From the NCBI GenBank assembly GCA_032622095.1, contig CP136065.1, positions 117,035,195 through 117,099,194 on the forward strand: DNA of 64,000 nucleotides. The letters run 5' to 3'. Source of the stretch: Siphonodentalium dalli (Eukaryota > Mollusca > Scaphopoda > Gadilida > Siphonodentaliidae). Shown one piece after another: positions 56,105-58,764 of this stretch (position 1 is its first letter; every line of letters begins with the position of its first letter). Below the pieces are notes generated by a model, which was not told where the DNA came from, did not search any database, and saw nothing but the letters and a program-made list of their open reading frames with translations. A program made the translations under genes and the position numbers.

Positions 56105-56610
56105 CCATGAGTTTCGTCAGTTTTACAGGTTGCCTTGATTTTGCTGGCATCAGAAATTTCTCAACAGGGTTACTATTACAGTGATTTGTCCATTTGAGGT
56201 CACTCGATAGTTGCAGTCCCAGGTAAGCACTTTCTTCACATTAAATTTCATTCCCCAGTTTTCTGCCCAGGCCTCAACGTTGTTCAGGTCAGCTTGTAGT
56301 TTGAGTTGGTCATCTGGGGTCCTTATATCTCTGTATAAAAGGCAGTCATCCACAAATAGTCTCACTGTCGATGTTACAGTTTGGTAGGTTGTATATAACA
56401 CAGAAACAGCCAAGGACCGAGAAGAATTCCTTGTCACGTTGTGGGACAATCTGAGTCAACTGCTAATTCCCTTAAGGTTCTCCCGTTTAGTCGGTACCAC
56501 TCTCATTTTCCTGTCTGTCAGGAAGGATGTCAAGCAGGTATGCAGTTGACATCTGATGCTGTACTGGCTTAGCTTGTACAAGAGTTTCTCGTGGGGCCCT
56601 GTGGTGAAAA
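56105..56610 (-). pseudogene. LINE reverse transcriptase remnant (palm and thumb)
   Basis: Minus strand, across several frames: GPHEKLLYKLSQYSI, FLTDRKMRVV, then TSTVRLFVDDCLLYRDI with the catalytic FVDD box (usually [FY]ADD), DLNNVEAWAENWGMKFNVKK, a frameshift, then AYLGLQLSSDLKWTNH (the YLG thumb motif). This is a non-LTR retrotransposon RT. Frameshifts and lost sequence around the SGVPQG region make it non-functional. It is the downstream half of the element whose upstream half lies at 57925-58764. Confidence 0.8.
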
Positions 56611-56884
56611 GTGTTGTCTTCATATGTTTTTCAAGAGTTATTTATCCTGGAAATGTGCCAACCTATGAGATAACTGTTTCCGCATTTCAGCACATGTTTT
56701 ATTTAATAGTTCCCATTATTTTTATTTTTGCATACTTAAACATTACAAATATATATCAGGACTGCAAGAAATAAACATATTTATAGTTAAACAAAATAAT
56801 GGTGCAGACAGTTATCATGTAGATTCAAAAAGGCGAGGATGATCCTCCAGGGAGGTAATCTCAATCACTTGAATATCCTAAAAG

Positions 56885-56926
56885 TGGTCTAGCGCTTTCG
56901 ATACAAGTGTATCTTCGTCAGGACCA
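56885..56926 (-). ncRNA. Hammerhead ribozyme-like motif (left arm, inverted)
   Basis: Exact reverse-complement counterpart of 57512-57553: core CUGANGA, helix II, GAAA, palindromic AGCGCT and helix I are all identical. Read on the minus strand its predicted cleavage lies after the A at 56890. Confidence 0.6.
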
Positions 56927-57039
56927 GGATGGTGTAGATAGATGTGGATTTTGCCTGTCCTTTTATACTCTAGGTTGATTGAGCGTGAATTTGATTGGTC
57001 AAAGGGTAGATGTCGGGTGTTTACGGACACAGAAGAGGT

Positions 57040-57385
57040 CTCAGAGTTGAGTGCGGGTATATTGCGGGTATGTGGTGCCTCGCGATTCCCGATAGTCTAT
57101 GCGGGTAGTTTGTGCGGGTAAATTGTTGCTGCCCAGTCACTGTAGTTTAGTGCGGGTAGTTAATTGTAGCGGGTATGTTTTATACAAAGCTACTACTATA
57201 ATAACGTGATGTGTCCATGAATTAAAGCACAAACGGCGTCGGTATATGATTTATAACCCAGGAAGCCGGATGTGTATTTGCGGGTATGTTGAGAAGAAAC
57301 GATCCGAACTGGTGCGGGTATGTCGCTTTATTCATCATAATGTGTACCAGCTGCGGGTATGTGTTGTGTAGTACCCGCATTTATC
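57040..57385 (+). repeat. Cluster of GCGGGTA words between the hammerhead arms
   Basis: GCGGGTA occurs about ten times (for example near 57053, 57064, 57101, 57114, 57152, 57168, 57280, 57315 and 57353), most often as TGCGGGTATGT, with one inverted TACCCGCA near 57371. Spacing is irregular, so it is not a simple tandem array. Confidence 0.75.
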
Positions 57386-57511
57386 AAATTGTATTGATAT
57401 TATGTTTATATCTTGCATCCCTAGGTGGCATGCCTTTGACAAATCAAATTCACGCTCAATCAACCTAGAGTATAAAAGGACAGGCAAAATCCACATCTAT
57501 CTACACCATCC

Positions 57512-57553
57512 TGGTCCTGACGAAGATACACTTGTATCGAAAGCGCTAGACCA
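57512..57553 (+). ncRNA. Hammerhead ribozyme-like motif (right arm)
   Basis: TGGTC / CTGACGA / A-GATAC-ACTT-GTATC / GAA / AGCGCT-A / GACCA. Helix I: TGGTC (57512-57516) with GACCA (57549-57553). Core CUGANGA at 57517-57523. Helix II: GATAC with GTATC, loop ACTT. Then GAAA at 57539-57542. Helix III would be the self-complementary AGCGCT, which can pair between two molecules, and the cleavage triplet would be CUA (after A57548). One extra A (57524) before helix II departs from the strict consensus. This minimal type I form with a palindromic helix III fits dimeric hammerheads of Penelope-like elements. Confidence 0.6.
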
Positions 57554-57924
57554 CTTTTATGATATTCAAGTGATTGAGATTACCTCCCTGGAGGATCATC
57601 CTCGCCTTTTTGAATTTATTACCTCATTACTCAATCACATTAAATATGGCCACGAGTATTTCTCTCACCAGTGTCACACCCGTTGACATCAACTTCCCCA
57701 CACCCAACGTGTCCTTCACTATAGTAATCCATGTTGACAACTTACAAAGGGGAACTAAATGCACACGCACAAATCTGGAACACTAAACCTCAGCACAGCA
57801 CCTCAGCTCGCAAACAAAGAGAGAGATAGCGCGGATCCTCATTCTCCGCGCACCATACCACCAGTAGGCACTAACAAGAAGGACTTTAATTAGTCGCCTC
57901 CAATTTATAGTTATCATGTAGGTT

Positions 57925-58764
57925 AGCACATTTCCAGGATAGATAAGTCTTGAAAAATCTACGAAGACAAGACCTTCAGTGGCACCCTGCTTTGCTGAAA
58001 TGCAGTATGATGATGTATGTATGAATCATAAGAATTCATGAGGTATTTTACAGTAGTGAGTATATGGGTCTCACAAGAATGGCCGGATCTATAAGCCATG
58101 GTTGAGATTAGTTAATACAGTGCAGTCCTCTAGATGTTGAGCATGTATCTGCATATTATTTGCTCGAGGATATTGCAAGCGACATAGGCCAGCAACACTG
58201 ATCTGTAATTTCCTACTTGTTGTTTCTTGCCCTTTTAAAAAAAAAATGTTTGTGTTCTTACAATCATCTGGTAATGTGCCGGTGTCGATTGAGAGCTGTG
58301 TCCTGGACTCAGCTCTGCTGCGCACATCTTTAAGACGTGATTTGGTTTTCCATCCGGTCCACCGTCCACATGCCTTTGATGAGTTGACTTTTCTGAGTAG
58401 ATTTAATTGTCACTACATTCTGTTCTATCATCAATAGTTTGATCGTCTCTGGTACGTATCTGTTGGTGTTGATATTTTGTCCAGTCTTGTCTTGATTGAA
58501 TACTTTCATGAAAGGGTTATATTCATCACTGATACACTGTTGATCAGCGATATCTTCACCTTTTTGGGAATGACCACCCACCTGTGGCGGATATGCTCCC
58601 CAAATTAGGTGGGGTTTTATGGGGTTGGGATATGCCTTTGGTAACTCGGGATGGGAGTCATGCCATTGGCCCCCTTTTAATATGTGTGCATCACTGCACC
58701 TGCTGATTGGTATATATTTTTGGACCGATCGGTCTAATATTATAAAAATTGATCGGTAGTTCAC
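57925..58764 (-). pseudogene. LINE reverse transcriptase remnant (fingers)
   Basis: Minus strand, in several frames: GPDGKPNHVLKMCAAELS (the PDG box), SIDTGTLPDDCKNTNIF, NNMQIHAQHLEDCTVLTNLNHG, GHSCETHILTTVKYLMNS and GLVFVDFSRL, typical ordered blocks of a non-LTR RT up to the [FV]DFSKAFD box. Multiple frameshifts. The next expected block (VPHEKLLYKL) is found at about 56600, so the intervening ~1.3 kb is inserted or rearranged sequence. Confidence 0.75.

Follow-up and report, generated by a model that had tools for sequence, protein, structure and literature searches.

The window analysed here is a 64-kb stretch (C5:117035195–117099194) of the genome of the scaphopod mollusc Siphonodentalium dalli; searches covered the whole genome, 2.23 Gb in 9 contigs. 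It contains, at 56823–57908, an insertion whose sequence marks it as a Penelope-like element (PLE), non-autonomous through internal deletion, from a repeat family with a 1.75-kb unit. The original prediction of a 13 bp target duplication is borne out: AGTTATCATGTAG stands as a direct repeat at both flanks. The insertion holds two inverted arms, or pseudo-long terminal repeats (pLTRs), which measure 186 nt rather than the 184 bp first given; they are 98% complementary, with 3 mismatches, and lie 427 nt apart. As also predicted, both carry an identical hammerhead motif (the CTGACGA...GACCA part was compared between them).

Positions within the family are numbered along unit U, a 1747-nt stretch of locus L001, with U1 set at the start of the window's right arm. 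The left half of the insertion runs in minus sense from U183 back to U1 and then from U1747 back to U1326. The right half runs in plus sense from U1 to U476 and includes the 290 bp to the right of the right arm. The centre is indeed rich in GCGGGTA, as had been proposed: the window holds 10 copies, all in the centre (9 on the plus strand and 1 on the minus), where 1.9 are expected, and 0 of 100 shuffles reach 10. It is not a neutral spacer between equal arms, however, since it belongs to the left, minus-sense copy as its upstream region.

A genome-wide search with the right arm gave 457 candidates, of which 40 were scored; these are 96–100% identical to it. Copies of family U are single, arranged head to tail in tandem with a period of 1.74–1.77 kb (L001–L003), or head to head. 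Because other copies are single or tandem, the inverted arms are one outcome of insertion and not a fixed feature of the element. Ends were parsed in 40 rows (39 loci and the window), which comprise the scored arm matches and further hammerhead motifs of the window type. After removal of L006, L044 and L053, which by their identical flanks duplicate L005, L035 and L052, 37 distinct copies remain, 18 head to head and 19 not; inverted loci of further sister families (L026, identical to L029, and L027) were left unclassified.

In L005/L006 (C5, 225.6 and 219.8 Mb), L035/L044 (C3, 281.3 and 280.0 Mb) and L052/L053 (C3, 13.8 and 16.2 Mb) an insertion and its flanks are found twice on the same chromosome, with one member inverted relative to the other in two of the three pairs; this suggests segmental duplication or haplotypes retained in the assembly.

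Outer ends and putative start sites of the inverted copies

The outer ends of U copies lie mostly at U182–193 (T1) or U473–483 (T2). Both ends fall at these sites in 15 of the 18 distinct inverted copies, the window's included, and all 15 combine one T1 with one T2. At even odds a mixed pair in 15 of 15 has a probability of about 3e-5, and a lower one with the 11:5 use of T1 and T2 found among the 19 non-inverted copies. The non-inverted copies with neither end are L045 (end outside the stretch), L048 (U208) and L052 (U127). L002 and L034 align past U500 under lax scoring; in the other alignment they stop at U477 and U480. The sister family V has 7 inverted copies, 3 of which have both ends at T1/T2 (L025, L032 and L068), and 3 of 3 are mixed.

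A single target duplication of at least 8 bp encloses both halves in every one of the 15 mixed U copies. It measures 12–15 bp in 13 of them, 9 bp in L033 and 8 bp in L039; in the control, mismatched flanks gave at least 8 bp in 41 of 1063 cases. The duplications of V copies L025 and L032 measure 12 and 15 bp. The inner junctions are unrelated in most of the 15. At the junctions the halves overlap by 1–7 nt in 8 and are separated by gaps of 1–13 nt in 4 (the window, L002, L007 and L055), while L039 is complex. The remaining two have filler between the inverted halves, 929 nt at L038 1288–2216 and 189 nt at L054 718–906; it is unlike the unit and is perhaps captured DNA.

Arm variants were compared in the 14 of 15 inverted copies with overlapping columns. 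Four elements have a rare variant common to both arms: U122C in the window, U296C in L034 and U165T in L039, each found in no other arm, and U89A in L043, found in 4 arms. Variants that separate the two arms of one element do not recur in another element, except at or beyond the termini. A single RNA, or a single source, of both cDNAs is suggested by these shared rare variants. Total divergence between arms was tried as a test of one RNA against two and rejected: the totals within and between elements are alike, since they are governed by later mutations and by target bases outside the ends, so that only shared rare variants inform.

T1 and T2 are marked alike. Unit U has the box TCGCCT-N0-8-AATTTAT at just two places, 170 and 462, immediately before T1 and T2 respectively; 6 of 20000 Markov sequences contain even one. 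The TATA box TATAAAAGG lies at U39, and inner or 5' ends cluster at about U63–77 in L033 and L055 (both halves), L054 and L056, and in V in L074, L076 and L031. Transcription may thus start at about U69, some 30 nt below the TATA box. Since the ends in this cluster precede the predicted ribozyme cut (U116), these templates at least escaped prior cleavage. Ends near the cut (U115, 122, 122 and 127) are few and inexact, and the idea that cDNA ends mark hammerhead cleavage was dropped. The 3' ends of L051, L052 and L053 at U127, after GACCATTTTTA, hint at a minor start site just below the cut.

Hammerhead motif and kinship to Penelope-like elements

The motif in each arm reads TGGTC-CTGACGA-A-GATAC-ACTT-GTATC-GAAA-GCGCTA-GACCA. 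As RNA, the core is CUGACGA-A-GAUAC-ACUU-GUAUC-GAAA-GCGCUA and helix I is UGGUC/GACCA. A hammerhead core consists of CUGANGA...GAAA...H17 with helices I and II, and variation at position N7 is expected of it. The motif has these elements, and N7 varies between C, A and T; an additional A following A9 is not part of the textbook core. Scans that did not require this A found it in all 60 rows of one set and in L023, L024, L059, L060 and L067. Two genome-wide patterns with free helix II did require it: CTGACGAAG-N4-24-CGAAAGCGCTAGACC gave 78 matches (30+48), and a CGTTG-type pattern of other PLEs gave 175 (94+81), against 0+0 for the reversed control of each. The covariance search proposed with the original prediction found nothing: the Rfam hammerhead model has no match in the window or the insertion, and none in the genome, the last result being uninformative, since 14 control genomes gave none either.

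Helices I and II covary between families. In 9 sequences (the window core and 8 of 15 distinct cores) 83 of 88 pairs form, and 8 of 10 pair positions are changed on both sides. None of 20000 shuffles reaches 83 pairs (mean 66), although the shuffles ignore relatedness and 6 of the 9 sequences come from close sister families. Outside the set were L001 (same as the window), L002, L003, L013 and L044 (window family, one change), L029 (shortened helix II), L066 (a near-twin of L067, with GAAU for GAAA) and the degenerate motif of L059. The L003 core breaks one helix II pair. Pairs were counted from helices split by hand, because automatic alignment shifted helix II of L060.

Sequence comparison identifies the motif as a minimal PLE-type hammerhead of the dimer type, located in the pLTR. 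Helix III pairing requires two sense copies of the motif. Each strand of the window insertion supplies one, so that, in line with the prediction, no cis dimer can cleave; transcripts of tandem copies could form such dimers. Small hammerhead variants of PLEs, in work ascribed to Lunse, Weinberg and Breaker (2017) and Cervera and de la Pena (2014), reportedly cleave as dimers. They are said to have almost no helix III, a palindromic helix III sequence and a tandem arrangement, all as in U.

The genome contains at least 146 matches to GIY-YIG frames (150 scored of 797 candidates), many in arrays with a spacing of 4.4–4.9 kb. A hammerhead of the same style lies near the frame start in 4 of the 15 PLE stretches scanned (L023, L024, L059 and L060), and also in L067; no such motif was counted in the other 11, among which L018 gave a bare pattern match. 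The 805-aa frame of L060 has GIY-YIG found by Pfam. In L064, Pfam finds RVT_1 at 29.8 bits (cutoff 29.6) and GIY-YIG at 25.2 (cutoff 22.6) in two overlapping open stretches in different frames; on one strand there follow a stop codon, the T2 region and, 150 nt further, the start of a zinc-finger frame. L066 shows the order zinc-finger frame, TATA box, hammerhead, then a frame whose start matches that of U. No reverse transcriptase (RT) frame is seen within unit U itself. Comparison by eye with L066 and L064 shows what U retains of the RT/endonuclease frame: 46 codons of its N-terminus and a C-terminal stretch with the frame broken. With both ends of the RT/GIY-YIG frame kept, the element is an internal-deletion derivative of a PLE. 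Family V likewise keeps remnants of both frame ends (L031), together with a C2H2 zinc-finger frame (L025). Other PLE traits are 5' truncation, the tandems, the inverted copies and target duplications of at least 8 bp in 33 of 54 rows (both families, duplicates included).

In one PLE lineage the space from the endonuclease stop to the next promoter holds the zinc-finger frame, some 300 codons long. It is open from stop to stop over 299 (L065) and 297 (L066) codons, and these two are 41% identical over 263 aligned residues. Between them the proportion of differing sites is 0.76 at synonymous sites (pS), which are near saturation, and 0.41 at non-synonymous sites (pN). The dN/dS ratio is 0.43–0.53 in closer pairs and 1.13 between the nearly identical L064 and L025. 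These values point to selection on the zinc-finger protein, and the frame looks like a possible second PLE gene. TACCCGC repeats lie upstream of the promoter in both U and V and are putative binding sites; a tie between them and the zinc-finger protein is a guess only. The coordinates of all features are listed in Table 1. The host DNA around the insertion is an older fold-back with arms at 56608–56675 and 57909–57976 (68 nt, 84% complementary).

Table 1. Coordinates of features in the window and at related loci
Feature	Position	Strand	Basis
Target-site duplication, left copy (AGTTATCATGTAG)	56810..56822	.	direct-repeat comparison
Target-site duplication, right copy	57909..57921	.	direct-repeat comparison
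First copy, T1 outer end (56823) to junction; contains arm, ribozyme, promoter and the TACCCGC-rich region, in this order	56823..57432	-	
Second copy, from junction (U1) to outer end T2 (U476)	57433..57908	+	
Left arm (pLTR); lowest 3 bases inside the target duplication	56820..57005	-	
Right arm (pLTR)	57433..57618	+	
Right-copy hammerhead, minimal PLE type; cut expected after 57548	57512..57553	+	
Left-copy hammerhead, minimal PLE type; cut expected on the minus strand between 56890 and 56889	56885..56926	-	
TATA box TATAAAAGG, right copy; likely transcription start ~57501 (U69)	57471..57479	+	start from sister-copy inner/5' ends U63–77
TATA box, left copy	56959..56967	-	mirror of right copy
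Repeats of TACCCGC (GCGGGTA), upstream of the promoter in the left copy	57053..57378	-	
T2 start-site box TCGCCT-CC-AATTTAT	57894..57908	+	
T1 start-site box, shortened by the insertion end (TCGCCTTTTTGAAT)	56823..56836	-	
46-codon remnant, N-terminus of PLE RT/endonuclease frame (MATSISLTSV...)	57646..57786	+	compared with L066 2825–3448
GIY-YIG endonuclease C-terminus remnant, frame broken, limits approximate	57815..57889	+	compared with L064 by eye
C2H2 zinc-finger frames	L065 1144–2040; L066 1023–1913; L064; L025 1553–1759		
The 15 mixed inverted copies	window, L002, L004, L005, L007, L033, L034, L035, L036, L038, L039, L042, L043, L054, L055		

Proposed paired priming and its alternatives

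The feature in the window is probably one non-autonomous PLE insertion made by paired target-primed reverse transcription on both strands, with one start site for each. The parent PLE would have the order promoter and minimal hammerhead, T1, RT/GIY-YIG frame, T2, C2H2 zinc-finger frame and next promoter. Deletion of nearly the whole RT/endonuclease frame would have brought T1 and T2 to within about 290 nt of each other. A PLE protein acting in trans, probably as a dimer, would nick both target strands about 12–15 nt apart; the end freed at one nick would prime reverse transcription of the element RNA at T1, that at the other nick at T2. The cDNAs, meeting head to head, would be united by end joining or template jumping, and the target duplication would arise as the staggered nicks are filled. 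We infer the protein dimer, its supply in trans, the use of one RNA, or of RNAs from one source, and cleavage of the ribozyme as a dimer in tandem transcripts. The inverted copies are best read as what remains when both strands have been primed, one at each site.

A head-to-head product within one target duplication is also made by L1 twin priming, in which two cDNAs from two nicked strands are joined; the second primer would here anneal anywhere inside the RNA. Copies with a T2 end that stop before T1 (L002, L034 and L036) look exactly like such products, and the odd ends of L050, L051 and L057 fit as well. Twin priming is nevertheless unlikely, with a second site that is mostly fixed and not random (T1 in 15 of 18), the same box at T1 as at T2, and, in most pairs, an overlap that the simple version on one RNA does not give. 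Less probable still is fold-back self-priming, published as a proposal for bdelloid PLEs, whose inverted pLTRs lie inside one target duplication with a tail on one of the two (PMC3846280). In this model the antisense template or cDNA of one copy would fold back and prime its own second strand, giving inverted pLTRs and a palindrome at the junction. Nearly coincident inner ends, as expected of it, occur in 2 of 15 copies (L033, U71/77; L055, U67/63), but both sit at the likely transcription start and are therefore explained by run-off copying. Other inner ends are unrelated (window, U1326/U1; L005, U1717/1372; L042, U127/485), and folding back gives no reason for the two outer ends to differ in all 15 copies.

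The original prediction left open a Penelope-like or a retrozyme-like element; the coding remnants and the minimal dimer-type hammerhead in the pLTR settle on the former. A retrozyme-like element, spread via circular RNA from hammerhead cleavage, would account for ribozymes in tandem units, and PLEs have been suggested to mobilise retrozymes (PMC7761336). It is hardly credible for U, whose unit of 1.75 kb compares with 150–450 bp, and which has a minimal ribozyme, coding remnants and a TATA box; moreover, some cDNAs reach U63–77, upstream of the cut at U116, and uncleaved RNA must therefore have been copied. The least plausible explanation of all is a second copy inserted independently beside the first in the opposite direction. 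PLEs do form tandems and nested copies, and extra sequence lies inside one half of L034 and between the halves of L038 and L054. Two independent events would nonetheless have to yield a single target duplication around both halves 15 times out of 15, 12–15 bp long in 13, and by chance one T1 and one T2 every time.

Several observations weigh against paired priming from marked sites in a PLE. At least one end lies elsewhere or could not be assigned in 3 of 18 inverted U copies (L050, L051 and L057) and in 4 of 7 inverted V copies (L069, L079, L080 and L082), the end of L082 being about 45 nt short of T2; the duplication of the mixed V copy L068 is only 7 bp. The start box was recognised only after the ends had been mapped. 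Its exact form is absent from family V, where T1 is TCGCATTTACTTTTA, and T2 of L064 is TCGCCTCCTTTTCATA, which slightly reduces confidence in the reading. Total arm divergence is the same within elements (0.024; 61 of 2568) as between them (0.021). Folded as a single strand, the hammerhead exceeds its shuffles by no more than a moderate margin (z -2.1 and -2.7), and the structure around T1 does not exceed them (z -0.7). Pfam RVT_1 was not found in the L060 frame, nothing was found in two pieces of the L066 RT frame, and no intact parent with this exact promoter was found. For PAc, the Anolis PLE, no strand difference in start site was seen, and the published tail is 30–40 nt, whereas T1 and T2 are about 290 nt apart in U and separated by a whole frame in the parent (PMC11167929).

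Relation to known systems and implications

PAc protein cuts and extends both target strands in vitro, and its reverse transcription starts at two internal sites, the sequence between which is the ‘tail’ (PMC11167929). The proposed priming of both strands in U fits this. PAc and the bdelloid Pen families have tandem pLTRs, as does U (PMC11167929, PMC3846280). The bdelloid families further share with U the inverted pLTRs, a TATA box in the pLTR, a 3' tail on one inverted pLTR and short target duplications, of 8–10 bp in the published examples (PMC3846280). A hammerhead at the frame start is described for GIY-YIG PLEs and is found here likewise (PMC11167929, PMC3846280). The uncleaved templates that reach U63–77 agree with PAc, in which ribozyme mutants are without effect on insertion (PMC11167929). 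U differs from these PLEs in being non-autonomous by internal deletion and in having a parent with an extra C2H2 zinc-finger frame; the mixed T1/T2 pattern was counted here. The second start site of its lineage lies just after the endonuclease stop codon, and not 30–40 nt from the first as published.

Metazoan non-LTR (long terminal repeat) retrozymes share with U a type I hammerhead, tandem copies and a non-autonomous nature (PMC7229834). Animal retrozymes are much smaller, with tandem repeats of 150–450 bp, and have canonical type I ribozymes with loop contacts in place of a minimal one. PLE coding remnants are present in U, and the available portion of that source does not mention them for retrozymes (PMC7229834).

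The later steps of PLE insertion have yet to be validated (PMC11167929). Family U makes the completion of insertion testable: its start sites are about 290 nt apart, the ends of 37 distinct copies have been examined, and T1 and T2 ends differ, so that each strand is recognisable from its end. The T1/T2 rule also offers an explanation for the tail on one of two inverted pLTRs (PMC3846280). For PLEs in general, the balance tips slightly towards integration as a paired reaction with two marked RNA start sites, one per target strand, in which a second cDNA, and not a strand made by the host, would complete many insertions; in this reading the parent PLE would moreover carry two genes, the second, downstream of the endonuclease, for a conserved zinc-finger protein.
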